From: a virus
DNA: 64,000 nt
Direction: 5' to 3' (one strand)
Virus record (IMG/VR): IMGVR_UViG_3300047445_000314
Location: 35,207 to 99,206 of that record
Below are positions 3,033 to 62,071 of the stretch, piece after piece. Each line of letters starts with the position of its first letter. The first letter of the stretch is position 1. Under the pieces are notes generated by a model that was given only the letters and a program-made list of their open reading frames with translations, was not told the origin of the DNA and ran no database searches. A program made the position numbers and the translations under genes.

Positions 3033-3050
3033 TTTGCAATCAACTTCAAA
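3033..3050 (-). repeat. 18-bp palindromic site, copy 1
   Basis: TTTGCAATCAACTTCAAA. It lies just past the stop of the preceding gene and ends 8 bases before the ATG at 3059, so its last A's merge with the ribosome site AAAGGA. Strand gives the orientation of the TTGATTGCAAA half. Confidence 0.85.
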
Positions 3051-3058
3051 GGAAAACC

Positions 3059-3274
3059 ATGCTGCGACTTACCTACCATAAAAACCGCAAATTCGTGAAG
3101 GTCGGCGACGCCGTGTATGACACCGAAGACCAGCCCGTCACCGTACGCGAGATTGTCCGGCCCGACGCCGTGCAATGGCCCGAAGGGCGGGTAGCCCTGG
3201 AGTGCGTCAAGACCGGCGTGATCGCCTTGTACGATGTCAGCATTATCCGTGCCCACTGGAAAGAAGAAGCATGA
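3059..3274 (+). CDS. Hypothetical protein (71 aa)
   Basis: Start at 3059 with AAAGGA supplied by the end of the palindromic site. The product looks like a small beta-barrel: alternating Val/Asp/Val residues, no cysteine motif, and an ending Lys-Glu-Glu-Ala. No family recognised. It overlaps the cupin gene by four bases (ATGA), so the two are translationally coupled. Confidence 0.65.
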   Translation: MLRLTYHKNRKFVKVGDAVYDTEDQPVTVREIVRPDAVQWPEGRVALECVKTGVIALYDVSIIRAHWKEEA

Positions 3275-3810
3275 AACTCTTTGACTACATCGTCGACCGC
3301 CTGATCGCGCGGGCGCAAAAGACACCCTACTTTACTCTACCCGGCTACATGGAACGTTTCTGGCTAGTACCCTATACCCGCGTCGGCTCGCACAGCGCGA
3401 TGGATGGCGTCGGTCCGGTCTCACCATGGAAGCGCCCGCTCTCGCGCGCCGTCCAGCTCCTCAATATCGCCGCGCGCATCCACCACATCCTGCGCTCCGA
3501 CCTGGACCGCCACATGCACAACCACCCATGGTGGTATGTCACCGTTATCTTGCGCGGCGGCTACTACGAGGTCACCCCGCTATACGATATGTGGGGCGAT
3601 TACGTCTGCGATATCCGCGAATGGCACGGACCCGGCAGCGTCCTGTTCCGGCGCGCAAATTCTCTGCACCGGATAGAGATACCGGCAGGACAGACGGCAT
3701 GGACTTTGTTCATCACCGGCAAGTACAGCAATAGCTGGGGCTTCGCGGAGGACATGGACCGGCCCGACGAGATCACGCCGTACAGAGAGTATCTAGACGC
3801 CAAGAAATAA
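3271..3810 (+). CDS. Cupin-fold protein (179 aa)
   Basis: Start 3271 overlaps the previous stop. The middle carries the cupin signature: Arg-His-Met-His-Asn-His-Pro-Trp-Trp, then Ile-Leu-Arg-Gly-Gly-Tyr-Tyr-Glu, and about 50 residues later Ser-Leu-His-Arg-Ile-Glu before Trp-Thr-Leu-Phe-Ile-Thr-Gly. These histidines are the usual metal ligands of the double-stranded beta-helix. Related cupins occur in many phages without known substrate. The first about 55 residues are a separate N-terminal extension. Metal binding is likely; the reaction is unknown. Confidence 0.75.
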   Translation: MKLFDYIVDRLIARAQKTPYFTLPGYMERFWLVPYTRVGSHSAMDGVGPVSPWKRPLSRAVQLLNIAARIHHILRSDLDRHMHNHPWWYVTVILRGGYYEVTPLYDMWGDYVCDIREWHGPGSVLFRRANSLHRIEIPAGQTAWTLFITGKYSNSWGFAEDMDRPDEITPYREYLDAKK

Positions 3811-3829
3811 AAGCCGCAAGTAGTCCGAT

Positions 3830-3847
3830 TTTGCAGTTAATTGCAAA
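3830..3847. repeat. 18-bp palindromic site, copy 2
   Basis: TTTGCAGTTAATTGCAAA with a TA centre. It ends 10 bases before the ATG at 3858, directly beside the ribosome site AAAGAGG. Confidence 0.8.
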
Positions 3848-3857
3848 GAGGCACGCG

Positions 3858-4193
3858 ATGGACAGTATGCTACACCTCCTTAGAGGGCTGGTTATCCCAG
3901 TATTCAAGCATGTCCACCGCGCGCTCGACCAGCGCCGCAAGCCTGCCGGACACGCGCTGGATGCACGCCTGGTCGCGGCGATCCGCTGGGATTATGAACA
4001 CGGTGCGATGAGCAAATGCGCGGTGGCGCGCAAGTACCGGCTGGTGGTCGGCCGCAACAACGTCCTTGGCATAGTCAATGGGCGGGTCCGGCCGGAAGTA
4101 GTTGCCAAACAGGACGATCTGGCATGGAGCAAACGAACATGGAACAGCGACCCGAGCAGTGGACGGAACATAGTACGAGGAGGGAAGCAATGA
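3858..4193 (+). CDS. Putative DNA-binding (HTH-like) protein (111 aa)
   Basis: I prefer 3858, which has AAAGAGG upstream, over an in-frame ATG that lies inside the palindromic site. Residues about 45-90 contain a Leu-Val-Ala-Ala-Ile-Arg helix, then Ser-Lys-Cys-Ala-Val-Ala-Arg-Lys-Tyr, resembling the trihelical HTH of resolvase/transposase families. The C-terminus is basic and Ser-rich. DNA binding is an inference; the target is unknown. Confidence 0.55.
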   Translation: MDSMLHLLRGLVIPVFKHVHRALDQRRKPAGHALDARLVAAIRWDYEHGAMSKCAVARKYRLVVGRNNVLGIVNGRVRPEVVAKQDDLAWSKRTWNSDPSSGRNIVRGGKQ

Positions 4194-4375
4194 ACATCTC
4201 GATGTACAACCCTGATTTCAACCTGCGCGTCAACTGGACATATCTATGGCGCAAGTTGCATTGCCTGAACGCGATGGATCAATGGACCAACTGGGAACGG
4301 CACTACGAGCGCGACGTCGACGCCGGGTACTGTCTTGATCGCTACAACCTGGAGGATGCATTATGGAAGAATTGA
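4190..4375 (+). CDS. Hypothetical protein (61 aa)
   Basis: Start 4190 follows AGGAGGGA and overlaps the previous stop (ATGA). The product is unusually aromatic (four Trp, six Tyr) with charged residues between, suggesting an amphipathic helical protein. It overlaps the next gene by 13 bases. No family recognised. Confidence 0.6.
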   Translation: MNISMYNPDFNLRVNWTYLWRKLHCLNAMDQWTNWERHYERDVDAGYCLDRYNLEDALWKN

Positions 4376-4716
4376 AATCAATTGCAAACGACGAGGAATT
4401 CACACGGCTTTTTCAAGATCTACTCCTGTATGAATCCCCATTCCAGCTCTCGGTGCGTACAGCACTCCTTACTAACTACATCGACCAGCGCACCGCCAAG
4501 CGCATCGAAGAAGAAGTCGAGCGGTATAGCCACACCCGTCGCTGCGTCGACTTGTCCAAGTTGGAAATCCCGCTGACCTTTTGCGGGGAGGACATGGTGC
4601 GCCTCAAGGACGTCGCGACCTTGTGCCAGGATAGTCCGGATATGTTCGTCCTGGATGATAGCCAGCCGCTCTACAAATACGAGCCGCCCAGGCTGGACCC
4701 GGATTGGGGGGATTGA
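4363..4716 (+). CDS. Hypothetical protein (117 aa)
   Basis: Start 4363 lies within the end of the previous gene behind GGAGG. Mostly helical with a Pro-rich C-terminus (Pro-Pro-Arg-Leu-Asp-Pro-Asp). The palindromic site at 4371-4388 is embedded in codons 3-9 and encodes Leu-Lys-Ser-Ile-Ala-Asn. No domain recognised. Confidence 0.65.
   Translation: MEELKSIANDEEFTRLFQDLLLYESPFQLSVRTALLTNYIDQRTAKRIEEEVERYSHTRRCVDLSKLEIPLTFCGEDMVRLKDVATLCQDSPDMFVLDDSQPLYKYEPPRLDPDWGD
4371..4388 (-). repeat. 18-bp palindromic site, copy 3 (inside gene start)
   Basis: ATTGAAATCAATTGCAAA. It begins eight bases after the ATG at 4363 and is translated. Confidence 0.8.
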
Positions 4717-4718
4717 GC

Positions 4719-4964
4719 ATGGAAAATTTGAAACCAATTGCATATATCACCCAGCGTGAAGGAGTAAGCATGGATATCGACGAGTACATCCGGGGGCTGT
4801 CCGACGAGGAACTGCGCGAGGCGGTTGTCACGGTCAGGGAGGATTTGGCGGAAGCCGCCGCCGACCATAACGGCTCGGAATGGCACGAGGCCTGCTTCGC
4901 GGCGGCCATGATTGTCGCGCTGGAAGTCGAGCGGCGCGGGATGGTTTTGAACGTAATACACTAG
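4719..4964 (+). CDS. Hypothetical protein (81 aa)
   Basis: Two starts are possible: 4719, whose codons 3-9 lie in a palindromic site, and 4770, which has a much better GAAGGAG at 4758-4764 and would give 64 residues. The shared part is an acidic helical protein (Asp-Ile-Asp-Glu-Tyr-Ile-Arg-Gly-Leu) with conserved-looking Glu-Trp-His-Glu-Ala-Cys. Small phage proteins of this build are common; the function is unknown. Confidence 0.6.
   Translation: MENLKPIAYITQREGVSMDIDEYIRGLSDEELREAVVTVREDLAEAAADHNGSEWHEACFAAAMIVALEVERRGMVLNVIH
4727..4744 (-). repeat. 18-bp palindromic site, copy 4 (degenerate)
   Basis: TTTGAAACCAATTGCATA. It lies eight bases after the ATG at 4719, the same offset as copy 3 from its gene start. 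Confidence 0.65.
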
Positions 4965-4973
4965 GAGAGTAAA

Positions 4974-6187: not shown

Positions 6188-6190
6188 ATC

Positions 6191-6858: not shown

Positions 6859-7061
6859 TGCCGATGCCTGCCCCGATCACCACCGCCACCTATTGCCGGG
6901 AATGCGCGAAGCGGCTCACATCGCTTTCCGCAGAGACACACTACGTACGTTGCCGTGGCCGCAACCCATACAACCGGGCATGGGAGACCAAAAATATCCC
7001 CATGCCTTTTTGCGATGCAGCATGTTTTAAGAAGTACCAGCGCAGCGCCGACGAAGATTGA
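6855..7061 (+). CDS. Zinc-finger-like small protein (68 aa)
   Basis: ATGA overlap with the previous gene. Cysteines are spaced CxxC near residue 14, then one near 33, and Cys-Asp-Ala-Ala-Cys near 53-57, consistent with a treble-clef or ribbon zinc site. The ending Lys-Lys-Tyr-Gln-Arg is basic. A nucleic-acid or protein contact role is inferred; target unknown. Confidence 0.6.
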   Translation: MMPMPAPITTATYCRECAKRLTSLSAETHYVRCRGRNPYNRAWETKNIPMPFCDAACFKKYQRSADED

Positions 7062-7074
7062 AATTGATTGCAAC
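7057..7074 (+). repeat. 18-bp palindromic site, copy 5
   Basis: ATTGAAATTGATTGCAAC. It overlaps the stop codon of the 6855 gene and ends 15 bases before the ATG at 7090. Confidence 0.8.
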
Positions 7075-17593: not shown

Positions 17594-18538
17594 ATGACCA
17601 CTAGCACCGAACGCCTGCTGCGCGCCGATATTGCGCTGTCCAACCTGGCCTCCAACGGCGGCCTGCTTCTGCCTGAACAGGCCAACCAGTTCATCGACTT
17701 TGTCGTTGAGCAACCAACCATGCTGGCCCAAGTGCGTCAACAGCGCATGAACGGCCCGCAAATGAAAATCAACCGTTTGGGCTTCGACTCGCGCATCATG
17801 CACGCCGCGACCCAGACCGGTGGCCAGAACGACTCCGGCTCGAACGATCGCTGGCTGGCCGCTGCCAAACGCAGCAAGCCGCTGTCCTCGCAAATCCAGC
17901 TCGACACCAAGGAATACATCGCTGAAGTACGTATCCCGTACGAAGTGATGGAAGACAACATCGAGCAGGGCAATTTCGAGGAACACGTCCTGCGCCAGAT
18001 GGCCGCCCGCGCCGCGCTGGACTTCGAGGAGTTCGCTATCTTCTCCGACACCGGCTCCGGCGACGCCGACCTGCTGGTACAGGATGGCTGGCTGAAACGC
18101 ATCACCTCGAACGTGCTGGACAACGCCTCGGCCGGTCCGAAGGACTCGATGGTGACCGCCGCCCTGCTGGCTATCCCGCAGCGCTACCTGCGCAACCTGC
18201 CAGCGATGCGCATGTTCTTGTCGATCGCCAACAAGATCAAGTTCCAGGCCGACCGCATCAACCGCATCGGCGCGCTGGGTGACCAGTCGGCGGTAGCCAA
18301 CGTGGACCTGTACTCGCAGGGCGTGAAGATCGAGCCGACCGCCACCATGGCCTCGGATGGCGTCGGTGCGAAGGGCATCTTCACCTACCCGCAAAACCTG
18401 GTGTTCGGCATCCAGCGCCAGATCACCGTGGAAACCGACAAAGATATCCGCTCGCGCGAATACATCATTGTGGTTACCGCACGTATCGCGCTGCAAGTCG
18501 ATGACCAGGTCGGCGCGCTGAAGCTGATCAACGTCTGA
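17594..18538 (+). CDS. Major capsid protein, HK97 fold (314 aa)
   Basis: Start 17594 after ACGGAGTAA. The order protease, scaffold, this protein and a terminator places it as major capsid. It has an N-terminal arm, a region with Leu-Leu-Leu-Pro-Glu-Gln-Ala-Asn-Gln-Phe, Ala-Glu-Val-Arg-Ile-Pro-Tyr-Glu-Val-Met-Glu-Asp-Asn (a hallmark of this HK97-fold subfamily, seen in E-loop and P-domain), Arg-Ala-Ala-Leu-Asp-Phe-Glu-Glu, and a C-terminal strand with Ile-Val-Val-Thr-Ala-Arg. A strong terminator follows, as expected for a highly expressed gene. Confidence 0.85.
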   Translation: MTTSTERLLRADIALSNLASNGGLLLPEQANQFIDFVVEQPTMLAQVRQQRMNGPQMKINRLGFDSRIMHAATQTGGQNDSGSNDRWLAAAKRSKPLSSQIQLDTKEYIAEVRIPYEVMEDNIEQGNFEEHVLRQMAARAALDFEEFAIFSDTGSGDADLLVQDGWLKRITSNVLDNASAGPKDSMVTAALLAIPQRYLRNLPAMRMFLSIANKIKFQADRINRIGALGDQSAVANVDLYSQGVKIEPTATMASDGVGAKGIFTYPQNLVFGIQRQITVETDKDIRSREYIIVVTARIALQVDDQVGALKLINV

Positions 18539-18557: not shown

Positions 18558-18598
18558 GAAGGCGGGTACGGGCTTGGTCCATGCCCGCCTTTTTTGTT
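18558..18598 (+). terminator. Intrinsic terminator after capsid gene
   Basis: AAGGCGGG and CCCGCCTT arms enclose an 18-base loop and are followed by a T-run. It lies immediately before palindromic copy 9. Confidence 0.75.
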
Positions 18599-18615
18599 TT
18601 GAAATTGATTGCATA
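18598..18615 (+). repeat. 18-bp palindromic site, copy 9
   Basis: TTTGAAATTGATTGCATA, abutting the terminator T-run and 23 bases upstream of the ATG at 18639. Confidence 0.85.
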
Positions 18616-25700: not shown

Positions 25701-28235
25701 GCCAAACAACTGGGCCTGGATTCGACCAATGCAGTCAAGGCCGGGGTGGAGGACTCCAGCGAGGCGCTGGCGGTGTTCGTCAATAAAACCACCAGCATCT
25801 TCACAGACGCCAGCGCCATTATCTTCACACAGATGGTGGTCCCTCTTATCGAAGCACGCGATGCTCGCGATAAGCTGCTAGTCGATATTGCAGAGCAGCA
25901 GAAGATACTCGACAACCCCGGCGCAAGCAAACAGGACAAGAAAGAGGCCACTGAACGGCTGGCAGAGTACAACGAGCAGCTTAAGGCCGCTAAGGAGACC
26001 TTCCGCCTGTTCGGCGTGGCGATTAGCGATGTCAGCAAAAAGATAGCCGAGATGAAGGGCGTTCCGCAGAATGTCCTGGACTCGGTCGCCCTCGTACTGG
26101 GGATTGCAAATACCAAAGAAGTGACGCTCGCCTCCGCGAAGGCTATCAAGACGGAGCTTGCCACCGCCAAGCAGCAGGGCACCCCATTGACCGGTGCCGA
26201 TGCAGGTAAGACGCTGGATAAGCCGAAGGCGACCGGCAGCAACACGGTTGATCCAAAGGGTGGAGAGAGTGAAGCGCGTAAGCTGGCGAAAGCGAAGGCC
26301 GACCTTATCCGCGCCCAACTAGAGGCAGAAGCTGCGATAAAAAAGCAAGCCAACGACAATGCCTTGCAAGAGGACCAGCGCCGGTTCGATCGTGGTCTGA
26401 TCGATCTGAGGGAGTTCTACCGGGAAAAGGCGCGAATCGACACCAACAACCTGAATATCGAGATCAACCTGAAGCAGGATGAGATCGACAATAAGCTGAA
26501 GGAACGCGGCGATAAGTCATTCAAGGAATCCGACCGTGTCAAGATCGACAAAGAACTGGCTATCTTGCGAGGACAGAAGGCGGTTCTGATATCCAGGGTC
26601 AACGAGATACCAGCACAGACTGCGGAAACGATCCGCAGGGCGGTAAAAACCTTCAATGAAGGGGTATTGGCCGACAAGCTCAACCTGGTCAAGGCCTTCG
26701 GCCTGGATGACGCCGAACAGGCAATGAAGGACCAATTTACCCTGATCGAGAGCCAGATCGAGGAGCGTATCCAGACATTGGAGACCGCGTTGTCGAAGAA
26801 GCGGCCAGGTATTACACGCGGCCTCATCGACGGTCTCAAGCTGGATGCGCTGGTTAAAGCTATCGACCCGCTTTTGCAATCAATTGCAGATCGGGCGCGC
26901 TTGACCGCCGACGCGGTGCAGAATGCCTTTAACCGTATCGCCTTCCTGCGCAATCAGGGAAAGGTCACCGATAAGCAAGTCGAGCAGTTCACCAATCTGG
27001 CCAACGCGGAACAGGCGGTGGCGATCCAGCGACAGATCGACGATACCGAACGCCTGATCGCAATCAATAATCGCGAGATCGAGACCAAGATGCTTGCGGC
27101 AGGTGCTACCCGCGAGAATATCCGTGCGGCCATCGAGCAGGATGTCGCTTACCAGCAGAATATCAATGCACTGGACGGCCTGAAGCTGAAGTACCAGGAG
27201 TTGACGGCGGTAGTCGACGAGACGGCGACATCAATCAACCATGCGCTGGAAGCGGGTATCAGCAATTCGCTAACCAATGCGATGAGCCGCAGCTTTGGTG
27301 GCATCCGCCGCATGCTGGGCAACCTGCTGACCGACCTCGGTCATGCGATCCGCGAATCCGTCGCCAAGGAATTCTCCCAGACCATCATCAAGGATGTGCT
27401 CGGTGGCGGCGGCACGGGTGGTATCGGCGGCTTCTTCTCCGGTCTATTGCGGGGGGCTGGCGACGGCCCGAAGGCGCTGATCGATAAGGACAAGCTGGGT
27501 CGCACCAAGGATAGCGCGATGTACGTCCGGCTGGCCGACGCGCAGGATGCGCTGGTCAACCCACAAGGGCAAGGCCAGGACAGCGCGTTCGGCCCTACCC
27601 CCAACGGCGAGACGCTGAGCCTCAAGGATTTCAGTAAGGAGACCCAGGACGCGGTCGGTGCGGCGGAGGACGGCGCTACCAAGATACTCGCCAGCGCCGG
27701 TAATGTGTTCGCCGAGCGCGGCCTGCAAGGCGTGGTAGAGCAGGGTATCGGCAGCGTCAAGAAATCGCTGGTGAGCGGCGTATTGAACCTGTCCAACGAT
27801 ACCAAGGGCGGCGGTATATTCGGGGATTTCTTCAAGGCGGTCGGTAGTACCTTTAAAGAAGCACTAAAGGGTATCGGTGATCTGCTCGGTTCTGCTTTAT
27901 CGGGGGTGGGAGGCATTCTCAGCGGTGTATTCCACACGGGCGGCGTGGTCGGTGAAGGCTCCGCCATGGCAACCGTGTCGCCTATGGTGTTTGCCAATGC
28001 GATACGCTACCATACTGGTGGCCTGGCAGGGTTGAAGCCGAATGAGGTACCTGCCATCCTGCAAAAAGGGGAAGAGGTATTGACCGCGAACAGCCCACGC
28101 CACCGCGACAACATTGCCGTGGCACCGAAGGCACCACCGGTCAACTTGCAATTGTCGGTACATCCGGACGCGCTGAACATGACCTTGCGCGACTGGTTCG
28201 AGTCAGAGCTGGCGCGCATTCACGCCAACCGGTAA
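22776..28235 (+). CDS. Tape measure protein (1819 aa)
   Basis: The longest gene, directly after GT. The N-terminus carries the TP901-type tape measure region (Leu-Ala-Asn-Val-Lys-Lys-Thr-Thr-Gly-Phe, repeated Ala/Gly-rich helices). Hydrophobic segments at about residues 410-445 and 760-800 could insert in the host membrane during DNA injection. Residues about 480-740 and 1170-1400 are long Ala/Lys/Glu coiled coils. The C-terminus has Gly-Gly-Val-Val-Gly-Glu-Gly, His-Thr-Gly-Gly-Leu and Glu-Val-Pro-Ala-Ile-Leu-Gln-Lys-Gly-Glu-Glu, a common tape measure ending. At about 0.15 nm per residue the tail would be about 270 nm. A palindromic site lies in the coiled-coil region. Confidence 0.9.
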   Translation: MADSQLNVTIQARDELSPDLNRLESKLIRFVGAVTSALAAIKISGLPISTAGDLERELANVKKTTGFTTTQILDLNDGLLKLSLHSDQSALNLAKISSAAGQQGLGGAGVAGVLKFTDSIARMASVLDIEVGKAGSDMGKLLNIFKIDINDVEKAASGFNEVTNHGAINAGNLLDAVKRIGAAAGSINATPLENLRDAITLGATGIELGLSPEVVGTSFTKILVQLKTKRADIIKALSRAEGKPVTEDEWLADVEKSGINAYLRLTKALRTFTGAGQAELISRTQGQGRIFGLGDKALQDVNDDLIRKNRANAAKGIDTGTSALREQQTVLNTFNAQVETLKNSLFKLAADGGQPLLAVLTKYVGQLALALQAPGMRAFIGAVVKSFGDMIDLAVSLTKAVSALGINWENFIKVVKVLLTVKAVSYFLNLATSLPIISGLLKKVTADTAAVGAAATGAGAAVGASNAKQMNSWEALRASVKKTADAYRTASAERIAAAEKEAAATAALAAKAAASFAEKDAAIVAAYQTKVAKSAAAASQKQSQPALNQARVSLNTAQGAVAAAITSGNAAIQNGDAALANATNTGQVGVDKAVAIGQAKRAAALKEHEAQMAAIEAEARGKRTAVDKEAKAFALAQEEAFYTKQLASLKVADAKRIQQAKVAADALLLTTTQRVEQEILAENAKLLAMQKGAAQANIANVIAIKNAEQLAKLRANAAAGILPIVPTTGPGLGGGPAPASPTPLPRAPAGGLFAGLSKLEVLAVGLTAVGNALKFVLRWLGPVYLGFIILGSIADALGWVDILPKALRNLGDWLGFSSEAARKEAQAMEESTAAMKRKNDRIKEQVDQYKELLLINGKLDKNKSDDVTNKIKLNTDAKTKAQGVDQLGALLSAARLVNTDALTEASAQPAVDAAKKNELDAFPAKIAKAKAELAQLQKSLQDSNTETAGFFATAVEKRTVELKTIEDAYAIASGHAKQLGLDSTNAVKAGVEDSSEALAVFVNKTTSIFTDASAIIFTQMVVPLIEARDARDKLLVDIAEQQKILDNPGASKQDKKEATERLAEYNEQLKAAKETFRLFGVAISDVSKKIAEMKGVPQNVLDSVALVLGIANTKEVTLASAKAIKTELATAKQQGTPLTGADAGKTLDKPKATGSNTVDPKGGESEARKLAKAKADLIRAQLEAEAAIKKQANDNALQEDQRRFDRGLIDLREFYREKARIDTNNLNIEINLKQDEIDNKLKERGDKSFKESDRVKIDKELAILRGQKAVLISRVNEIPAQTAETIRRAVKTFNEGVLADKLNLVKAFGLDDAEQAMKDQFTLIESQIEERIQTLETALSKKRPGITRGLIDGLKLDALVKAIDPLLQSIADRARLTADAVQNAFNRIAFLRNQGKVTDKQVEQFTNLANAEQAVAIQRQIDDTERLIAINNREIETKMLAAGATRENIRAAIEQDVAYQQNINALDGLKLKYQELTAVVDETATSINHALEAGISNSLTNAMSRSFGGIRRMLGNLLTDLGHAIRESVAKEFSQTIIKDVLGGGGTGGIGGFFSGLLRGAGDGPKALIDKDKLGRTKDSAMYVRLADAQDALVNPQGQGQDSAFGPTPNGETLSLKDFSKETQDAVGAAEDGATKILASAGNVFAERGLQGVVEQGIGSVKKSLVSGVLNLSNDTKGGGIFGDFFKAVGSTFKEALKGIGDLLGSALSGVGGILSGVFHTGGVVGEGSAMATVSPMVFANAIRYHTGGLAGLKPNEVPAILQKGEEVLTANSPRHRDNIAVAPKAPPVNLQLSVHPDALNMTLRDWFESELARIHANR
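26873..26890 (-). repeat. 18-bp palindromic site, copy 11 (in tape measure gene)
   Basis: TTTGCAATCAATTGCAGA, translated Leu-Gln-Ser-Ile-Ala-Asp. Confidence 0.8.
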
Positions 28236-40279: not shown

Positions 40280-40297
40280 TTTGAAATTGATTGCAAT
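40280..40297 (+). repeat. 18-bp palindromic site, copy 14
   Basis: TTTGAAATTGATTGCAAT, 24 bases before the ATG at 40322 and just after a promoter, so well placed to act as an operator. Confidence 0.85.
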
Positions 40298-47491: not shown

Positions 47492-48124
47492 ATGACCCTT
47501 TCTACCATGCCAGTACCACTGTCCCACGGCCTGCAAAATACCGCAGCCGACGACGTTGTCAAGGAATTGCGTGGCCTGACCCAGTCCCTGCTGGCCGGTA
47601 CCACCGCCAACACGACCATCGCCCTGGCCGCGATCCGCACCGAAGACACCTTGATCGGCGCGCTGAACAACAACGCCGGTACCATCACCGACATCCTGTC
47701 GACCATGTCGATCAACGACTGCCGCGCCTCCGGCACCGTCACCGCCGCCTCCGCCGTTGCCGCCGACACCGTCACCGTGGATGGCCGCGTCTATACCGCC
47801 GTCGCCAACGGCGTCACCCCGGCCTTCGGCCAGTTCTCGGTCGGTGCCACCGACGCCGCCTGCGCCACCAACCTGGCCGCCGCCATCAACCTGGGCGAGC
47901 AGGCCGACACCACCAGCAAGGTGACCGCATCGGCAGCCTCAGCCGTGGTGACCATCACGGCGCGCGCGGAAGGCACGGGTGGCAATGCCATCACCCTGGC
48001 TACGTCGAACAACACCCGCCTGGCCAAGTCCGGCACGGTACTCGCGGGTGGCACCGCTACCGGTGGCGTGAAGTCGACCGGCGCGACCAACCAGATCATC
48101 CTGACCTGGTTCAACAAGCACTAA
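47492..48124 (+). CDS. Putative virion/decoration protein (210 aa)
   Basis: Start 47492 after AGGAGC. The first about 75 residues are helical. The C-terminal about 130 residues contain Asp-Thr-Val-Thr-Val-Asp-Gly-Arg-Val-Tyr-Thr-Ala-Val, Ala-Thr-Asn-Leu-Ala-Ala-Ala-Ile-Asn, Val-Val-Thr-Ile-Thr-Ala-Arg and Gly-Gly-Asn-Ala-Ile-Thr-Leu, a beta-sandwich domain common in phage structural proteins. Very regular Ala/Thr/Val codons suggest strong expression. It is isolated after the lysis genes and before a terminator. Confidence 0.6.
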   Translation: MTLSTMPVPLSHGLQNTAADDVVKELRGLTQSLLAGTTANTTIALAAIRTEDTLIGALNNNAGTITDILSTMSINDCRASGTVTAASAVAADTVTVDGRVYTAVANGVTPAFGQFSVGATDAACATNLAAAINLGEQADTTSKVTASAASAVVTITARAEGTGGNAITLATSNNTRLAKSGTVLAGGTATGGVKSTGATNQIILTWFNKH

Positions 48125-48189
48125 GAGCAGGTGAAGCGACCGGTGAAGCTACCCGCCTAGCCGAATCGCGGTACCCTAGTCGTACCCCG

Positions 48190-48217
48190 AAAGCCTCCTC
48201 ACACAGGGGGCTTTTTT
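48190..48217 (+). terminator. Intrinsic terminator after late genes
   Basis: AAAGCCTCCT pairs with AGGGGGCTTT (one G-U pair) around a CACAC loop, followed by a T-run. Confidence 0.85.
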
Positions 48218-48230
48218 ACGTCCGTATATT

Positions 48231-48281
48231 TTGTACCACATGGCCCGTGGCGTATCGGGTAGCAGTACATTATGGTACAAT
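48231..48281 (+). promoter_or_regulatory. Promoter with TTGTACC...TGGTACAAT elements
   Basis: TTGTACC at 48231-48237 and GGTACAA at 48274-48280 are inverted arms, as at 1886-1915; TACAAT at 48276-48281 with a preceding TG is an extended -10. It starts transcription toward the AAA+ ATPase gene, and palindromic copy 18 lies 10 bases downstream. Confidence 0.5.
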
Positions 48282-48291
48282 TGGTTTCCCG

Positions 48292-48309
48292 TTTGAGATT
48301 GATTGCAAA
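48292..48309 (+). repeat. 18-bp palindromic site, copy 18
   Basis: TTTGAGATTGATTGCAAA, just past the -10 of the ATPase promoter, an operator-like position. Confidence 0.85.
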
Positions 48310-48373
48310 TAATTCCAATACGGATTGGCTCCTGCCGCGACGACAAATCGCACCTATATAAAGGTTGAACGTT

Positions 48374-50047
48374 ATGATCCTTACGACCACCCAAGACAAC
48401 TCGGAACACGCGCTCATGTCGGAGCTGTACAAGATGGCCGACGCCGGGGCCTCCGTGCTCCAGGTCCGCACTCGCGAAGTGATGCGCGGGGCGATGACAC
48501 TGCGCCGCAACATCCTCCTGTCCGAACACAGCGAATACCGCGAATGGGACGCCATCAATGGCTTCCGCAGCTTCACCCGCGAGGATTACGTCAGCCATAT
48601 CAAGGCGGGCGACCAGAAGGACTTCATGAGCGCGCTGGAGGAGCCGCTGGGCGAATTGCGCAACACCTCCTCGTCGATTAACAGCAAGCGCGATACGGTT
48701 CATTATTACATATTCGTTGACCCGCATCCCTATCTGGCCAACAACCCGGTCGCCACCGAGCTGGTCCAGCAATACGCGGCGATGCTGCCCTCCACCAATG
48801 TTTGCATCATCTTTGTCACCCCCGACGTCACGCTGGATGGCATCACGGCAGGCACCTTGCTCATCTCCGACATGAGCACGCCCAGCGCGGAGGAGTTGCA
48901 GGACGTCCTGGTCAAGATCATCGAAAAGGCGGAGGGCGATTTCAAGGACGGCAGCGAACTGTCCGATGAGGATATCCGCCGCCTGTCCGTTCTCGGGCTG
49001 GGGCTGTCCCTCTACGAGTTCGAGACCTACGCGGCGATTGCCATCATTGACGCGAATCAGAAGGACCATGACGCGATCACTTTTGAGGTGATGTCGGATG
49101 GGATTGCCCTCGGCAAGACGGCGGTGGTCAAGCAGTCCGATATCCTGGAGCTTATGGCTGGCGCGAACATGGCCGACGTCGGCGGCATGAACCGCCTCAA
49201 GGACTGGGTCGCCTCGCGCGCCGATTGCTACTCGGACGAGGCCAAGGCCTTCGGTATCGAGCCACCCAAGGGCGCGGTCGTGGTAGGCGTACCTGGCGGC
49301 GGCAAGTCGCTGGTTGCCAGGGCTACCGCCTCCGAGCTTGGCGTGCCATTAGTCCGCATGGATTTTTCCCGCATCTTCTCCAAGTACATCGGCGATAGCG
49401 AGAGCCGCATCCGCTCCGCGCTGAAGATGGTCGAGCAGATGGCTCCCTGCGTCCTCTTCCTCGATGAGCTGGACAAGGGCCTTGGCGGCAGCGCCAACGG
49501 CGGCGGCGATTCCGGCACCTCCTCGCGCGTGCTTGGCTCCTTCCTCTCCTGGCTACAGGATAACACCGCGCCGGTCTTTGTCATGGTCACCGCCAATCGC
49601 GTCGACGGCCTGCCTCCGGAACTCCTGCGGCGCGGCCGGTTCGATCAAATCTTCTCGGTCGGCCTACCCACCGACAAGGAACGGCTGGAAGTACTGGATA
49701 TCCACCTGCGCAAGCGTAATAAGACTACGACGTTCAGCAAGGAAGACCTGTTCGAGTTTACGGCGGCCTCGCGCGACTATGTCCCTGCCGAGATCGAATC
49801 GTCGGTCAAGGATGCGCTGATCATGGCCTTTAACGAAAAAACCACCGTCAAGATGGCGCATATCTTGCGCTCCCTGAAAGACATGGTGCCGATGTCGAAG
49901 TCGAACGCGGATGCCATTGCCAAGATCGTGGCATGGGCGCGGGATAACGCCACCCCGGTTAACTACGATGCGACCACGGACGCACCACTTGTCAACCTCG
50001 GACTGACGCGGCGCGTGGCAACCAACCGCACCCGCCCGACGCGGTAA
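48374..50047 (+). CDS. Ycf46-like AAA+ ATPase (557 aa)
   Basis: I choose ATG 48374, with AAAGG at 48360-48364, over TTG 48365. The N-terminal about 230 residues resemble Ycf46-type proteins (Val-Arg-Thr-Arg-Glu-Val-Met-Arg, then Glu-Trp-Asp-Ala). The AAA core has Walker A Gly-Val-Pro-Gly-Gly-Gly-Lys-Ser near residue 305, Walker B Cys-Val-Leu-Phe-Leu-Asp-Glu-Leu-Asp near 358, a sensor-1 Asn in Thr-Ala-Asn-Arg, and Arg-Arg-Gly-Arg-Phe-Asp near 418, the FtsH/Cdc48-class second region of homology. It should be an active hexameric ATPase. The C-terminus ends with a short Thr/Arg/Pro tail. It heads a block containing DUF1257 and DUF2997 genes. Confidence 0.8.
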   Translation: MILTTTQDNSEHALMSELYKMADAGASVLQVRTREVMRGAMTLRRNILLSEHSEYREWDAINGFRSFTREDYVSHIKAGDQKDFMSALEEPLGELRNTSSSINSKRDTVHYYIFVDPHPYLANNPVATELVQQYAAMLPSTNVCIIFVTPDVTLDGITAGTLLISDMSTPSAEELQDVLVKIIEKAEGDFKDGSELSDEDIRRLSVLGLGLSLYEFETYAAIAIIDANQKDHDAITFEVMSDGIALGKTAVVKQSDILELMAGANMADVGGMNRLKDWVASRADCYSDEAKAFGIEPPKGAVVVGVPGGGKSLVARATASELGVPLVRMDFSRIFSKYIGDSESRIRSALKMVEQMAPCVLFLDELDKGLGGSANGGGDSGTSSRVLGSFLSWLQDNTAPVFVMVTANRVDGLPPELLRRGRFDQIFSVGLPTDKERLEVLDIHLRKRNKTTTFSKEDLFEFTAASRDYVPAEIESSVKDALIMAFNEKTTVKMAHILRSLKDMVPMSKSNADAIAKIVAWARDNATPVNYDATTDAPLVNLGLTRRVATNRTRPTR

Positions 50048-53406: not shown

Positions 53407-53424
53407 TTTGCAATCAATTTCAAC
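53407..53424 (-). repeat. 18-bp palindromic site, copy 20
   Basis: TTTGCAATCAATTTCAAC, 11 bases before the ATG at 53436 and directly upstream of GGAGAG. Confidence 0.85.
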
Positions 53425-54395: not shown

Positions 54396-55781
54396 ATGAA
54401 ACATGCGTTATCTTACCACGATTATCGTGCGTTGTGCTCATTCGCTGAGCAAAAAGATGAAAATATCTGCAAACAATATAGCAGCACGATGGATGCGCTG
54501 TTCACCTATTGGACCAAAACACTCGGCCACGACAAGATTTGCGTACTTGGCTTCGTCCTGTCCAGGACGTTGAAGTATGGCAAAGCGGTTGCCGCGATCC
54601 CGTTCCCGGCCTTCCTGGGTGGCGTGGTCAGCGAGGAGTACCAGCGCTCGATCACCAGCGCCCTGAATATTTCCAAGAATACACTTCGCAACGTCCTGAA
54701 GGAATTGGTGGAGGATGGTTTCCTGCACGCATTTTTCCCGGAGAAGCGGCGCGGAGTGGTAGACAACTTCACCCGGTTTTTTGAGATTGATTTCAAAAAG
54801 TTGCAACGCCTGACGTCGAAAGGTAGCAGCATCATGGGCATATTGCGTACTCCGAAATCCGCGAAATCGCCTGTGGCGGGTAGGGAAAATAGTAAGGAAA
54901 ACACCCCTGAAAAGTCCGTTTTACGACTCCCAAAATTGGGAGGCCTAAGTAGTATTCATAAGATACCTAAAGGTATCTATACCGCATCGCCTGCGGCTCG
55001 CGGGACCGGCCTGGAAGATGAACAACCAGAAACAAATATCGAACAACCTGTCCCTACCGTTCGTCGCTTGACCCGTACCCGCCCTGCGGCTGCTACCCCG
55101 ATCGCTACCCAGCCTACCCCTGCACCGCTATCCGGCGTCGCCAGCCTGATCCAGCGCGTCCACCAGATGCAGCAAGAGTTTCGCGACCGGCGTGCCGCCA
55201 AGGTGCGCTCCGCCAAAGGCGCTACCTCCGCCGCGCTGCAACAGCAGCAGGTGCAAGCCATGCTCGATAGCGCGATGGCCAAGTATTTCCCCAACTCACC
55301 ACGCATGGCGATCACCGGTAAAGCCTTCGGTGCCATGCGGAATCATCTGAAGCGCTCCGCGCCGGAGGACCTGGACGATTTCATCAATTGGACGATCCGT
55401 AGCTGGTCCGAGCTGGCGCAGCAGCACTCCCGCAGCGCCCGTAAAAACTTGGGAGACAGCACGAAAGCGAAGTTCGAGCCGTTGCCGTTTGCACCCAATT
55501 TCAATTCCTTCGGCTACCGCCTGCCCTACTTCCTGGCCTGCTACGTCAGCCGTAAGGCCGAGACCGCCGCGCTCGGTTCCCGTGATACCCGGCAGGATGA
55601 GTTGCTGGAGCGTACCAAACGCGCATTGGCCCACACCCGGCAGGAGATCGTCAGCCTGCGCGCGGTGGCGCAGAAAGCCCAGCAGGAGGCACGCGAGCGT
55701 CGCTCTGCTACCACGCGTATCCATGAGACAAGTTATGATAACGATATCCCCGCATGGGATGATTCCGAGGAGAATGAATAA
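54396..55781 (+). CDS. Replication initiator / helicase-loading protein (461 aa)
   Basis: Start 54396 after CGAGGCAG. The N-terminus (residues about 80-130: Ser-Ile-Thr-Ser-Ala-Leu-Asn-Ile-Ser-Lys-Asn-Thr-Leu, Leu-Lys-Glu-Leu) is a winged-helix like phage O/DnaD-type initiators. A linker rich in Thr, Pro and Arg, including Arg-Leu-Thr-Arg-Thr-Arg-Pro-Ala, follows. Then come a helical domain (Ile-Gln-Arg-Val-His-Gln-Met-Gln-Gln), a Ser/Arg/Ala region and a final coiled coil. A palindromic site is inside. It should bind the origin and hand over helicase; the following gene is a loader-like protein. Confidence 0.65.
   Translation: MKHALSYHDYRALCSFAEQKDENICKQYSSTMDALFTYWTKTLGHDKICVLGFVLSRTLKYGKAVAAIPFPAFLGGVVSEEYQRSITSALNISKNTLRNVLKELVEDGFLHAFFPEKRRGVVDNFTRFFEIDFKKLQRLTSKGSSIMGILRTPKSAKSPVAGRENSKENTPEKSVLRLPKLGGLSSIHKIPKGIYTASPAARGTGLEDEQPETNIEQPVPTVRRLTRTRPAAATPIATQPTPAPLSGVASLIQRVHQMQQEFRDRRAAKVRSAKGATSAALQQQQVQAMLDSAMAKYFPNSPRMAITGKAFGAMRNHLKRSAPEDLDDFINWTIRSWSELAQQHSRSARKNLGDSTKAKFEPLPFAPNFNSFGYRLPYFLACYVSRKAETAALGSRDTRQDELLERTKRALAHTRQEIVSLRAVAQKAQQEARERRSATTRIHETSYDNDIPAWDDSEENE
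54780..54797 (+). repeat. 18-bp palindromic site, copy 21 (in gene)
   Basis: TTTGAGATTGATTTCAAA, translated Phe-Glu-Ile-Asp-Phe-Lys at the end of the winged-helix domain. Confidence 0.75.
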
Positions 55782-58064: not shown

Positions 58065-60852
58065 CGAAAAGCTCTGCGACGGCTGCCCGATCCAAGGGGA
58101 ACATCAACCCGCCAACGCGGTCGGGCCGGAGAACGCCAAGTTCCTGGTCGTGGTCGATGTCCCCAGCGCGGCGGGTGCCAAAGAGAAACGATTACTTGCC
58201 CCCGGCACCTTGAAGGTGTTCGCGGAGGAGATGCAGGAGATCGGCTTCGGCAAGGATGACTTCCGTTTCTTCCCGTCCTGCCTGTGCCCGTACAACCCGG
58301 ACTCGATGACCAACAAGACGAAGAAGGCGATCCACAAACACTGCCGCCAGCACTTCGTCGACGAGGTATTCACCAATCACCCGGACGCCCTGATCCCGCT
58401 CGGCGCGGCAGCAGCTACCCATGCGTTCGGGCGCGACACCAAGATCACCAAGGTGCGCGGCCTGGGCAACCAAAGCGAAGAGTTCCATATACCCATCTTC
58501 CCGCTGCTCTCCCCGGCGCAGGTGGTGTTCTATCCACAGAACCGCCCCATCTTCCGCGCCGACGTGCAATCCTTCGCGCGCTTTTTTGACCACGGCTATG
58601 ATGCCGCGTCCGGCAGCGTCGAGCATGGCGAGTACACCTTTGTCGACGACCTGCAATTCCTGATCGACATGGACCCGGAACTGCTCGCGTTCGATACGGA
58701 GAACACCGGCCTGCGCTGGTACGCCCAAGGTTGTGATGTCCGCACCTACGACGCGGCCCGCCATAAGGGCAACCAGGAATTCAAACCACGCGCACAGATA
58801 CTCACCATGCAGTTTTGTGTGGAGCCGGGGAAGGCCTATGTTCTGAAATGGGACCATCCAGAAGACCCGATCCCCGAGGCGCGCAAGGCCAAGCTGCGCA
58901 ACCAGATACGCCAGTTGCTGTGCAAGCCGGAGCGTATCATCGTTGGTCAGAATCTGAAATACGACGCGGTGTATCTATGGAAGACGGAAGGCATCCGCAT
59001 CCGTGTCGGAGGCGACACCCTCATGCTGGCGACCTTGCTGGACGAGAACGCCATGGAGCGCAACCTGGACGTGCTTACCAAAATCCATTTGCCAGCCTAC
59101 GCTGGCTACGCCGACTTGTTCAACGCCACCTACGACAAGAGCCGCATGTGGGAAGTCCCACTGCACGAGATACGTGGCTACGGCGGCGGTGACGCCGATG
59201 TCTGCTACCAGATATATGAAATCCTGGAGGCGCAGGTCATGCAGGACGAGCGGCTGTGGGCGCACTACCTGCGTGTTTCGTTACCCGGCCTGAACGGCTT
59301 TGTCGGCCTGGAGGCGCGCGGCATGCACGTCGATACCGGTGGCGCGATGGAAGAGTTCCGGCAATACATGGTGACCGAGGTCGAACGGCAGCGGGTATCT
59401 ATCGTCGCGCAGATACCGCGCCAGATCAAGCTGGATCACATCAACCTGAAAGCGTTCAAGGGCAAGCCGGAAAAAGCCCTGGCATTGTCGCGGCCAGGGC
59501 TTTTAAAAGACATTCTATTTACTCATCCGAATGGCTTTAAATTAAAACCCAAGGTCTTTACTAAGACCACTACTAAGCTACCGGACCACCTGAAAGAACC
59601 TAGTGTCTCCTCCAAGGACCATCTGCCGTTTTTCTTTGATACCTGTCCGTTCACCTTCGAGCTGGCCGAATATGTCAAAAATGAACGGCTGCTCACCACC
59701 AACGTGGTCGGCTTTAAGAACAAGTACGTGGTCGACGACATGGTCAGGCCTACGTATGGACTGTCAAAAGCTGTTACTGGGCGCACTAACAGCGACGATC
59801 CGAACGGGCAAAACTATCCCAAGCGCGGCAAGATGGCCAAGACCTACGGCAAGCAGTTCGTGGCTCCGCCCGGCTACTTCATGATCGCGCCCGACTTGTC
59901 ACAAGCCGAGCTGCGCATCGCCGCGTCGATGGCCAACGAAAAGACCATGATCGAGATTTACAAGGCGGGCGGCGACATCCACCGCACCACCGCCGCCGTC
60001 GTGATGTCGATCGCCGATGCCGCCTTCGCGCGGCTGATGGAAGCGGTACAGAAGGATGCCCGCCAGAAGGCCAAGGCGGTGAACTTCGGCTTCCTGTTCG
60101 GCATGTGGTGGAAGAAGTTTATCGTGTACGCCAAGACCCAGTACGGCGTGGAGTTCACCGACAAGGAAGCTAAGGCTGTCCGCGAGAACTTCTTCAAAAA
60201 GTACAAAGGTCTGGAGCCATGGCACAACCGGGTCAAGGACTTCGCGTTGCAACATGGCTACGTGCGCTCCTATACCGGCCGCATCCGTCACCTGCCCATG
60301 GTCGACTCGTCCGAGGACTACATCGTGCAAGAGGCACTGCGCCAGGCCATCAACAGCCCGGTCCAGGAATGCGCCTCCTCGCTGGGCGTGATGGCGATCG
60401 GCCGCATGAACGAAGAAGTCGACTCACGCTACCTGCCTATCGTCGGCTTTATCCATGACTCGATCATCGGTTACGTGCGCAAGGAATATCTGGACTGGGG
60501 TTTGAAAACCATCAAGGGCTATATGGAGTCGAACCCGATGAAGGAATGGTTCAACAGCGAGATCAAGGTGCCGATTGTCGCCGACGCCTCCTTCGGGTTA
60601 AACTTCGGGGAGTTGATCGAATGCCCCGGCTTCAGGCTTGATGAACCCTACAATTTTCAGGGTTTAGTGGACAAGGAAGGCAGACCACTCGCGCAGGTGC
60701 CAGTACAGCGCACGCCACCGAATAACGGCAGGTTGACGAGATCAGTCTATACACTTGATACCGACCTGGAAGAGGAAATGACCGACATCATGACCACCGC
60801 GCTGGCGCGTTCGCGCCGGGTGCCACGGTCGTCACCGAGGAGAGCAGCATGA
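58054..60852 (+). CDS. DNA polymerase: UDG-like, 3'-5' exonuclease and PolA domains (932 aa)
   Basis: Start 58054 after GGAGGAG. N-terminal about 170 residues resemble family 4 uracil-DNA glycosylase (Cys-Asp-Gly-Cys, Ser-Cys-Leu-Cys, and a further Cys). The exonuclease has Phe-Asp-Thr-Glu-Asn-Thr near residue 212, Asn-Leu-Lys-Tyr-Asp near 300 and Asp-x-x-x-Tyr near 380. The PolA domain has motif A Pro-Asp-Leu-Ser-Gln-Ala-Glu-Leu-Arg near 612, motif B Arg-Gln-Lys-Ala-Lys-Ala-Val-Asn-Phe-Gly near 670, and motif C His-Asp-Ser near 799. It replicates the phage genome; a UDG-like domain on PolA is known in SPO1-type phages. Confidence 0.85.
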   Translation: MAINEKLCDGCPIQGEHQPANAVGPENAKFLVVVDVPSAAGAKEKRLLAPGTLKVFAEEMQEIGFGKDDFRFFPSCLCPYNPDSMTNKTKKAIHKHCRQHFVDEVFTNHPDALIPLGAAAATHAFGRDTKITKVRGLGNQSEEFHIPIFPLLSPAQVVFYPQNRPIFRADVQSFARFFDHGYDAASGSVEHGEYTFVDDLQFLIDMDPELLAFDTENTGLRWYAQGCDVRTYDAARHKGNQEFKPRAQILTMQFCVEPGKAYVLKWDHPEDPIPEARKAKLRNQIRQLLCKPERIIVGQNLKYDAVYLWKTEGIRIRVGGDTLMLATLLDENAMERNLDVLTKIHLPAYAGYADLFNATYDKSRMWEVPLHEIRGYGGGDADVCYQIYEILEAQVMQDERLWAHYLRVSLPGLNGFVGLEARGMHVDTGGAMEEFRQYMVTEVERQRVSIVAQIPRQIKLDHINLKAFKGKPEKALALSRPGLLKDILFTHPNGFKLKPKVFTKTTTKLPDHLKEPSVSSKDHLPFFFDTCPFTFELAEYVKNERLLTTNVVGFKNKYVVDDMVRPTYGLSKAVTGRTNSDDPNGQNYPKRGKMAKTYGKQFVAPPGYFMIAPDLSQAELRIAASMANEKTMIEIYKAGGDIHRTTAAVVMSIADAAFARLMEAVQKDARQKAKAVNFGFLFGMWWKKFIVYAKTQYGVEFTDKEAKAVRENFFKKYKGLEPWHNRVKDFALQHGYVRSYTGRIRHLPMVDSSEDYIVQEALRQAINSPVQECASSLGVMAIGRMNEEVDSRYLPIVGFIHDSIIGYVRKEYLDWGLKTIKGYMESNPMKEWFNSEIKVPIVADASFGLNFGELIECPGFRLDEPYNFQGLVDKEGRPLAQVPVQRTPPNNGRLTRSVYTLDTDLEEEMTDIMTTALARSRRVPRSSPRRAA

Positions 60853-61070
60853 CATCACGCAAACGATTCAAAAAGGCACTGGCGCGGATTATCCGCATGG
60901 ACCGCGACCTGTTCCTCGCCCCGCGCTACAAACCTAACACGCATGCCAGGATTGTCGCGGCGATGGCGGCAATCGGTAAAGGCAGGGTAATGGCTGGCCG
61001 AAAGGATGAGGCAATCGCCGCAATGAACGCCGCCCGCTATGCTCGCCACCAAACTTCGATACCGGACTAA
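60849..61070 (+). CDS. Hypothetical protein (73 aa)
   Basis: ATGA overlap with the polymerase. Basic, Ala-rich (Arg-Lys-Arg-Phe-Lys-Lys-Ala-Leu-Ala-Arg-Ile) with two short helices. No domain recognised. Confidence 0.55.
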   Translation: MTSRKRFKKALARIIRMDRDLFLAPRYKPNTHARIVAAMAAIGKGRVMAGRKDEAIAAMNAARYARHQTSIPD

Positions 61071-61072
61071 CT

Positions 61073-61219
61073 ATGATTACCGTAACCTATCAATATCCAG
61101 ACATGGAGCGGGAGGCGGAGAAGGAATTCACCGACCCGGCGCTGGCACACAAGCTTGTCCAGGATGTGACCGACAATGACGGCTGGGCCGAAGTTCTCTG
61201 GGACGGGGAGGAAGATTAA
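61073..61219 (+). CDS. Small acidic protein (48 aa)
   Basis: Start 61073, two bases after the previous stop. A 48-residue acidic protein (Asp-Met-Glu-Arg-Glu-Ala-Glu-Lys-Glu-Phe-Thr-Asp, ending Asp-Gly-Glu-Glu-Asp). It overlaps the next gene by one base. Function unknown. Confidence 0.55.
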   Translation: MITVTYQYPDMEREAEKEFTDPALAHKLVQDVTDNDGWAEVLWDGEED

Positions 61220-61500
61220 TGACACCTAACGAAATGACTGCCATGCGGAAGAAGTTTGAGGAGCAGGATGTCAGTGGCCATCCCGACTATACGTACAGCA
61301 TCGCCGCGCGCCGCTATGTCTGCAATTTTACCCAAGGGCGCTGGTTGAACTGGCAAACGGCGTGGGTGGCCGGGAAAAACTACAAACCGGGGCAGGACAG
61401 GCAGGAAACCCCCGCCCGCATCGTACAATCGACCGCACCACCGCCCGCCGCGACCACGACCGCCAACCCCGCTCGCCTGACGCGCACGCGCCCAGCATAG
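61219..61500 (+). CDS. Hypothetical protein with LTRTRP tail (93 aa)
   Basis: Overlaps the previous stop by one base. The first about 55 residues form an aromatic domain (Trp-Leu-Asn-Trp-Gln-Thr-Ala-Trp), followed by a Pro/Ala/Thr-rich tail ending Arg-Leu-Thr-Arg-Thr-Arg-Pro-Ala, the same motif as in the initiator-like protein. Function unknown. Confidence 0.55.
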   Translation: MTPNEMTAMRKKFEEQDVSGHPDYTYSIAARRYVCNFTQGRWLNWQTAWVAGKNYKPGQDRQETPARIVQSTAPPPAATTTANPARLTRTRPA

Positions 61501-61505
61501 CGCGC

Positions 61506-61511
61506 TATACT
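61506..61511 (+). promoter_or_regulatory. -10-like TATACT
   Basis: TATACT in a 37-base gap before the gene at 61538; no -35 seen. Confidence 0.3.
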
Positions 61512-61537
61512 AGAACCTACACCATAAAGGAGCCATC

Positions 61538-62071
61538 ATGGCAGCCGTACTCCGCCGCACCCCACCCGCGCCAGCGGTAGAAGCACCGCGCCGCATGATG
61601 CGCGTCTCGCGCCCCGGCCTGGTTGATGCCAAGTCCGTGGCCGCGCAGGAGAAGATCGAAAGCACGCTCAAAAACCATTTGCAATTGATTGCATATAACG
61701 CCAACCGCGCCGAGTATTTGCGCGCGTCAATCGCGGCCGAGTTGCTGTCGCTGGAAGAAGACACCAAGCGCCACGCAGCCATCTGCGAGAAAGCGCTGAA
61801 GGATGGCAAGCTGAAAGGCTGGACTACCGCCGACTGGGAATGCAAGTTCGAGGACACGCTAATCCGTGGCTCGCGCGAACCCAAGCTGGATGAAGTCTTG
61901 CTGGCGTTGGGCGAGGAGAACTTCCTGAAGGTGGTCAAGGTACAGATCACCGAGCTGAAGGAGTTCATGACGGACAACGAGATCAACGCAGTCTCGACCG
62001 TGGTACCCGCCACGCCGGGGCCAACCGTATTCAAGCATGGTCCGGTCGGGGTGAAGAAAGGCAAGAAATGA
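61538..62071 (+). CDS. Hypothetical protein (177 aa)
   Basis: Start 61538 after AAGGAGC. The N-terminus is Arg/Pro/Ala-rich (Arg-Arg-Thr-Pro-Pro-Ala-Pro) followed by an extended helical protein with Gln-Glu-Lys-Ile-Glu-Ser-Thr-Leu. Palindromic copy 23 encodes Leu-Gln-Leu-Ile-Ala-Tyr. It could be a helical architectural protein of the replication region. Confidence 0.55.
   Translation: MAAVLRRTPPAPAVEAPRRMMRVSRPGLVDAKSVAAQEKIESTLKNHLQLIAYNANRAEYLRASIAAELLSLEEDTKRHAAICEKALKDGKLKGWTTADWECKFEDTLIRGSREPKLDEVLLALGEENFLKVVKVQITELKEFMTDNEINAVSTVVPATPGPTVFKHGPVGVKKGKK
61678..61695 (+). repeat. 18-bp palindromic site, copy 23 (in gene)
   Basis: TTTGCAATTGATTGCATA, in the frame Leu-Gln-Leu-Ile-Ala-Tyr. 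Confidence 0.85.

Follow-up and report, generated by a model that had tools for sequence, protein, structure and literature searches.

Our results suggest that an 18-bp palindrome scattered over the 64,000-nucleotide stretch of viral DNA analysed here (the window; positions 35207-99206 of the 99,206-bp IMG/VR virus record IMGVR_UViG_3300047445_000314) marks the dispersed operators of a phage-encoded DNA-binding protein, serving mainly in sequence-specific organisation of the genome. We give this reading a probability of about 0.48. The evidence comes from the number and even spacing of the sites, from versions of the site that differ between related phages, and from an unannotated protein family, phrog_17202 (here labelled DBP), that accompanies them.

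A palindromic site recurs across the window and the record

The site reads TTTG(C/A)AAT-N2-ATT(G/T)CAAA, with a two-base centre. A sequence-only reading of the window had listed 23 copies, judged chance unlikely, and proposed a phage-wide, double-stranded DNA site for one protein. The motif was present at all 23 positions. Searching with TTTGMAATTGATTGCAAA (≤3 mismatches) gave 37 strand-hits in the window, compared with a mean of 0.05 and a maximum of 1 in 100 dinucleotide shuffles, in agreement with the view that chance is unlikely. These hits collapse to 25 distinct places, including two (2091 and 55488) that the earlier list lacked. The motif extends into the remaining 35 kb of the record, with 53 strand-hits in the whole record and none in a reversed-sequence control. 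A position weight matrix found ~46 sites in the 99.2-kb record, typically ~2-3 kb apart across the entire genome, a larger set than first listed.

All but one of the 180 genes called in the record lie on the same strand, where the earlier reading had all genes facing one way. Its inference from copies in both orientations carries little weight, since any palindrome would be met in both and this alone says little. "Orientation" here means only a central TG or CA, and the counts (18 TG, 23 CA) show little bias. Its claim that the TTGATTGCAAA half is most constant is partly an artefact of choosing orientations to fit an asymmetric pattern; what stands is that one arm varies between C and A at a single position, with the A variant in more than half of the record's sites. 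CA-centred sites at window positions 3033, 36445, 51084, and 53407 lie 8-14 bp ahead of start codons and overlap the Shine-Dalgarno sequence, while TG-centred sites are more distant from start codons (mostly 15-41 bp).

The record opens within the large terminase gene, and its end lies beyond primase. Judging from relatives, it lacks ~15 kb that carry genes for recombination, ParB-like proteins, and terminase, so the record would be a fragment despite its size. Megablast against GenBank phages found no near relative for the first 25 kb of the window.

Lineage-specific versions of the site occur throughout a phage clade

We found relatives via the major capsid protein, and the dyads of named phages by searches without a preset sequence. 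Relatives keep the site; neither of the outcomes that the earlier reading had named as refuting it (similar numbers in shuffles, loss in relatives) occurred. Variants are found throughout a clade of 80-120-kb phages that includes Pseudomonas FBPa45, Stenotrophomonas DLP5, Rhodobacter RcZahn and RcTiptonus, Rhizobium TM16 (RHph_TM16), Vibrio VHS1, and the Rhizobium plasmid p7. At the sequence level, every adequately sampled clade member carries an equivalent. TGCAA-N4-TTGCA dyads number 26-54 per genome in FBPa45, p7, DLP5, RcZahn, TM16, and two contig relatives, and exact copies number 25-52 in many records, compared with about zero in the reversed control. A relaxed pattern detected ~48 dyads in RcTiptonus, and VHS1, scored with its own matrix, has 30 sites of a half-degenerate version. 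No such dyad was found in Streptomyces phage Karimac or the distant relatives L031, L032, and L034.

Each lineage has its own version. In IMG/VR relatives with 52-58% capsid identity, both arms have changed together (TTTGCAAT/ATTGCAAA, TTTGAAAT/ATTTCAAA, and GGTGCAAT/ATTGCACC). Further lineages have GTGCAAG or TTGCAAC arms, and the dyads of FBPa45, p7, and DLP5 are GTGCAAGCGYTTGCAC, TTGCAACGCGTTGCAA, and TGCAATTGATTGCA, respectively. The joint change of the arms from lineage to lineage leads us to infer strongly that two subunits bind each site, one per arm. Variants also differ within one host genus: RcZahn and RcTiptonus, which share a Rhodobacter isolation strain, have different centres (TTAA and TCGA), and two Rhizobium elements differ in both arms and centre. 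These differences on shared hosts argue for a phage-encoded binder, and we rejected a host protein as the reader. Together with the covarying arms and a candidate gene in the missing ~15 kb, they support the earlier proposal of a phage-wide site for one protein, possibly lying outside the window, and point to a phage protein encoded there. From these comparisons, binding by a phage protein is almost certain.

Sites are evenly spaced

The gaps between sites had a coefficient of variation (CV) of 0.47-0.65 in ten genomes, compared with 0.95-1.28 for random placement preserving intergenic and coding counts. Pooled over the ten genomes, 18 gaps were shorter than 500 bp, while 89.5 were expected. 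VHS1, when re-scored, gave a CV of 0.46. Dyads were likewise even in contigs found through DBP (G030, G034, G036, G042, and G044); the dyads of these DBP-found genomes include GGCAAT-N2-ATTGCC, TGACAT-N2-ATGTCA, and TTTGCAA-N3-TTGCAAA. The dyads did not cluster at any one packaging-like locus.

Site positions are conserved within and between genes

Intergenic DNA holds 32 of the record's 46 sites although 88% of the sequence is coding; in DLP5, 26 of 36 sites lie inside genes. When sites were placed genome-wide by reference to orthologous genes, agreement between genomes exceeded that of rotated controls. Between G001 and G002, for example, 18 of 29 mappable sites fell within 100 bp, compared with 6% expected. 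Nearly all relatives that have the gene preceding the capsid gene carry a site inside it, at alignment columns 172-174 in the window, most relatives, and FBPa45, and slightly shifted in others. Two codon frames are used, so that this site reads DLQSVAK in some relatives and GAINCTD in others. As read from these alignments, a position kept inside a gene though codon frame and peptide change reflects selection on the DNA.

A promoter 3-11 bp downstream of the site was found at none of the 46 sites in this record and at 0-6 per genome elsewhere, and we rejected a promoter-operator reading on this absence. An upstream site was retained at the DBP gene in 8 of 9 genomes and at the AAA-ATPase gene in 7 of 10, compared with 0-5 for other core genes. 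At most dyad-bearing DBP promoters, the dyad ends 5-9 bp upstream of a TTGACA-like -35 box; a minority of other promoters share this geometry. In p7 (NZ_CP071625), strong repeated promoters starting TTGACAAACACT occur at 747, 28148, 48467, 74812, and other positions (L118, L119). TTGACAAAC has 12 copies in p7, and a minority of these promoters have a dyad at a fixed upstream distance.

An unannotated protein family accompanies the sites

DBP is a protein of 270-450 amino acids encoded after RuvC, in the stretch of relatives that corresponds to the missing part of the record; the loss of this part would explain why the record has no DBP. The DBP gene comes after those for RecA, the Cas4 exonuclease, and RuvC, with terminase to its other side; in DLP5 it is at 47761-48564, and in VHS1 it is VHS1086. 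The protein matches only phrog_17202 and a few weak families, all of "unknown function". In a core-gene comparison, DBP was found in all site-bearing genomes that include its stretch, and was absent from the site-less relatives G007, G008, G009, G029, and Karimac. Loci gathered by DBP similarity alone mostly carry dyads of their own, including CGCAAT and GGCAAT versions. AlphaFold predicted an all-helical core (pLDDT 94, pTM 0.87). These comparisons make DBP the likely binder, and its gene is probably autoregulated via the site. In the presumed recognition helix, K-RKA-[DE] is common to two CGCAAT lineages that are independent of each other, and the GGCAAT phages carry DRTIR; because L183, with KRKAD, has TGCAAT, covariation between helix and site is suggestive only. 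A resemblance to the Raf1 alpha-helical domain was weak (E 2.2) and was not used.

A PLSDB search with DBP returned p7 only, searches of genome collections with DBP found no integrated or plasmid forms, and 49 GenBank records contain a DLP5-like DBP. Among contigs with distant phrog_17202 proteins, G033 (L211-L214) has TGTGA-N6-TCACA dyads, the form of the bacterial CRP site (17 with ≤1 mismatch, 1.4 expected). G031 (L206-L208) has clustered dyads like TGGATCGT-N2-ACGATCCA, and we dropped it as a case of the same architecture. A second enriched dyad, GGACC-N4-GGTCC, has ~84 copies in G041 (L234-L239) and ~45 in G042 (L224-L229).

We also considered other conserved proteins. ParB_N domains occur in 16 of 27 records, with no match in VHS1 despite its 30 even sites, and we rejected ParB_N proteins as the binder. 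They have SGHQR/GGHHR-type motifs, and one branch has a methyltransferase-like C-terminus; by eye, there is no obvious DNA-reading domain. In the window's branch, tandem ParB-N-domain genes lie upstream of terminase (L119:7873-10303, L117:16568-18860, L130:7854-10193). The second of the pair has a methyltransferase-like C-terminal half (SGHQR motif) and possibly functions in DNA modification. The small core protein phrog_25619, of unknown function and encoded between helicase and RecA, is present in four of the five site-less relatives; since it therefore does not track the sites, it was rejected as the binder. ParA (PF13614) was detected in 0 of 20 genomes or records (control, 14 of 14), and thus the earlier analogy with partition fails in its classical ParABS form. 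Tyrosine integrase (PF00589) was found in none of 20 genomes (serine integrases were not searched for), and a CI-type HTH_3 repressor (PF01381) is not conserved, occurring in only 5 of 20.

Features of the window

Table 1. Dyad sites and genes in the window; dyad sites carry no strand
Feature	Sequence	Positions	Strand	Remarks
Dyad site	TTTGCAATTGATATCAAA	2091..2108		within gene; not in the earlier list
Dyad site	TTTGCAATCAACTTCAAA	3033..3050		intergenic
Dyad site	TTTGCAGTTAATTGCAAA	3830..3847		intergenic
Dyad site	ATTGAAATCAATTGCAAA	4371..4388		region of gene overlap
Dyad site, weaker	TTTGAAACCAATTGCATA	4727..4744		intergenic
Dyad site	ATTGAAATTGATTGCAAC	7057..7074		intergenic
Dyad site	TTTGCAATCAGTTGCAAA	10710..10727		within gene
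Dyad site, full consensus	TTTGCAATTGATTGCAAA	13348..13365		intergenic
Dyad site	TTTGCAATCAGTTGCAAA	16333..16350		within gene preceding major capsid gene
Major capsid protein gene		17594..18538	+	phrog_1623; 47% identity to Pseudomonas phage FBPa45
Dyad site	TTTGAAATTGATTGCATA	18598..18615		downstream of major capsid gene
Dyad site	AATGCAATTGATTGCAAA	21582..21599		within small gene
Dyad site	TTTGCAATCAATTGCAGA	26873..26890		within 1,819-aa gene (probable tape measure)
Dyad site	TTTGAAATTGATTGCAAA	32619..32636		intergenic
Dyad site	TTTGCAATCAATTTCAAA	36445..36462		intergenic
Dyad site	TTTGAAATTGATTGCAAT	40280..40297		intergenic
Dyad site	TTTGCAGTCAAGTGCAAA	41744..41761		intergenic
Dyad site	CGTGCAATCAATTGCAAA	43718..43735		within gene
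Dyad site	TTTGCAATTAATTACAAA	45399..45416		intergenic
Dyad site	TTTGAGATTGATTGCAAA	48292..48309		~65 bp upstream of AAA-ATPase gene
AAA-ATPase gene		48374..50047	+	opens replication module
Dyad site	TTTGCAATCAATTTCAAA	51084..51101		intergenic
Dyad site	TTTGCAATCAATTTCAAC	53407..53424		intergenic
Dyad site	TTTGAGATTGATTTCAAA	54780..54797		within gene
Dyad site, weak	TTTGCACCCAATTTCAAT	55488..55505		within gene; not in the earlier list
Dyad site	TTTGAAGTTGATTGCAAA	57932..57949		within gene
Dyad site	TTTGCAATTGATTGCATA	61678..61695		within gene

Discussion

In the model that we favour, DBP, an all-helical protein whose gene would be regulated by its own type of site, occupies sites each 2-3 kb and bridges, loops, or compacts the circular, often extrachromosomal phage DNA. 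It would also tune its own promoter and a few others in which a site precedes the -35 box at constant spacing. The regular spacing, the indifference to gene boundaries and orientation, and the absence from promoters in the record speak for a function that acts at genome scale and depends on length, for example organising or compacting the phage DNA, and an even grid kept clade-wide, within and between genes, points to genome-scale function rather than promoter control. Whether architecture rather than silencing is the main role is nearly an even bet, and the two could coexist. More tentatively, the DBP family may represent a new kind of viral chromatin, reading evolving palindromes at near-regular 2-3-kb intervals and giving shape to the phage chromosome much as nucleoid organisers act on bacterial DNA, in a large clade whose members include plasmid-like and lytic phages.

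Several observations, in addition to the L183 counterexample, weigh against this model. DBP had no credible Pfam hit, and PDB sequence and fold searches gave no significant match. Dyads are weak or absent at the DBP loci L164, L167, L168, L180, and L195, they are not clearly even in G037 (P 0.15) and G041 (P 0.23), and those of G031 are clustered. The co-occurrence of DBP and sites lies within one clade and partly reflects shared ancestry. Like the L5 repressor, DBP is encoded near Cas4 and has a site at its own promoter, a likeness that favours silencing; with the probable autoregulation and the intergenic preference in this record, silencing stays a serious rival.

If the sites were silencers like stoperators, DBP or another phage repressor would block RNA polymerase at all of them along a genome with its genes facing one way, quieting an extrachromosomal prophage and repressing its own gene. 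This would suit DLP5, which is temperate and exists as a phagemid (PMC5834331, PMC7326821), VHS1, whose lysogeny is described as extrachromosomal (PMC3148565), and the plasmid p7, as well as the majority of window sites, which lie in short intergenic gaps, and the conserved site at the DBP promoter. We nevertheless consider this role rather unlikely. There is little orientation bias in the window, whereas reversed L5-type stoperators lose function, and the stoperators of D29 are oriented by arm and uneven, unlike these sites. Most DLP5 sites are within genes, DBP lies among recombination genes outside any lysogeny module, and some clade members are described as lytic (e.g., UF_RH6, PMC10281142). 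A role in partition or tethering, by which dispersed dyads would attach a plasmid-like prophage to host structures or pair copies for inheritance, is improbable. The same three members are extrachromosomal, with ParA lacking in all 20 genomes a different inheritance device would be needed, and 2 of 9 DBPs match a Borrelia plasmid partition family model, yet the match is weak (E 4.8e-5) and could come from low-complexity sequence. Known centromere sites, moreover, are usually clustered rather than even over 100 kb, and VHS1 lysogens segregate unstably (PMC3148565).

The location of the DBP gene between the recombination genes and terminase is what would be expected if the sites were recombination or packaging signals (Chi-like or terminase-related), or a nuclease barrier, for the adjacent RecA, Cas4, RuvC, or terminase. 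Chi-type signals are oriented and asymmetric. The sites are palindromic and evenly spread, with no cluster at one packaging-like locus, and we regard such functions as very unlikely. Slightly less probable still is that ParB-N-domain proteins encoded beside terminase bind the sites instead of DBP: they are found in most site-bearing genomes, and ParB relatives bind palindromes, but the lack of a match in VHS1 and of an obvious DNA-reading domain argues against them. Since a palindromic transcript can fold on itself and many sites closely precede a start codon, we also considered RNA hairpins or chance codon effects in place of protein sites on DNA, which we find scarcely credible. The symmetry runs through the centre in several lineages (TTGCAACGCGTTGCAA, TGCAATCGATTGCA), leaving no room for a loop, the A variant breaks a stem pair, and the same site occurs in different codon frames among relatives. 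The hairpin reading was rejected on the central symmetry and the frame changes.

Our favoured model of genome organisation by DBP connects a puzzling sequence pattern with one particular protein family, so far unannotated, in the cultured phages DLP5, VHS1, and RcZahn, and is thus directly testable in existing laboratory systems. The site could serve as a metagenome marker for the clade, and the lineages together form a ready-made set of protein-site pairs that differ in specificity. Full-text literature searches, which most subscription papers lay outside, did not find the pattern described, and the text of the DLP3 and RcZahn papers, when searched, made no mention of such sites. Dispersed operators as such have precedents in a few temperate phages. 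What appears to be new here is their even grid, a palindromic code that differs by lineage, and a protein family without annotation.

Comparison with known systems

The analogy with mycobacteriophage stoperators drawn in the sequence-only reading fits in part. Cluster A stoperators (L5, D29) comprise 20-30 genome-wide copies of a short site with a lineage-specific consensus, and numerous genome-wide sites are also found here (~46 in the record, 26-54 in relatives). Both systems have a site at the gene of the binder (here of DBP, the candidate) and a Cas4-family gene nearby. However, stoperators are 13-bp asymmetric sites, bound by a monomer and oriented with transcription, whereas the sites described here are palindromic and largely unoriented, with a bias in VHS1 (22:8). 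In D29, the stoperator comparator that we analysed, the sites are oriented by arm, with a CV of 1.16-1.18 and 9-11 gaps shorter than 500 bp (1-2 mismatches). Stoperators are mainly in short intergenic regions, as are most sites of this record, in contrast to the mostly coding sites of DLP5.

Other systems share fewer features. The SPBRE of SP-beta is likewise a conserved, repeated phage element whose phage-encoded binder, MrpR, was identified years later, but it has about ten bound sites in promoter regions, and MrpR has a tyrosine-recombinase fold. Phage P1, a plasmid-like phage of similar size, has many operators for its C1 repressor; unlike the sites here, the annotated ones are at promoters and very uneven, with five in the first 50 kb and gaps of 666 to 27,125 bp. 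ParABS systems resemble these phages in having palindromic sites, with ParB-N proteins in the same phages, and differ in that the phage sites are dispersed, ParA is lacking in 20 genomes, and VHS1 has sites without ParB_N. The chromosome-organising or nucleoid-occlusion systems MatP/matS, Noc/NBS, and SlmA/SBS also use dispersed palindromes, which a dimeric protein recognises to act on the DNA as a whole. These systems belong to bacterial chromosomes, use other protein families, and are much sparser, whereas the phage sites are denser and even.

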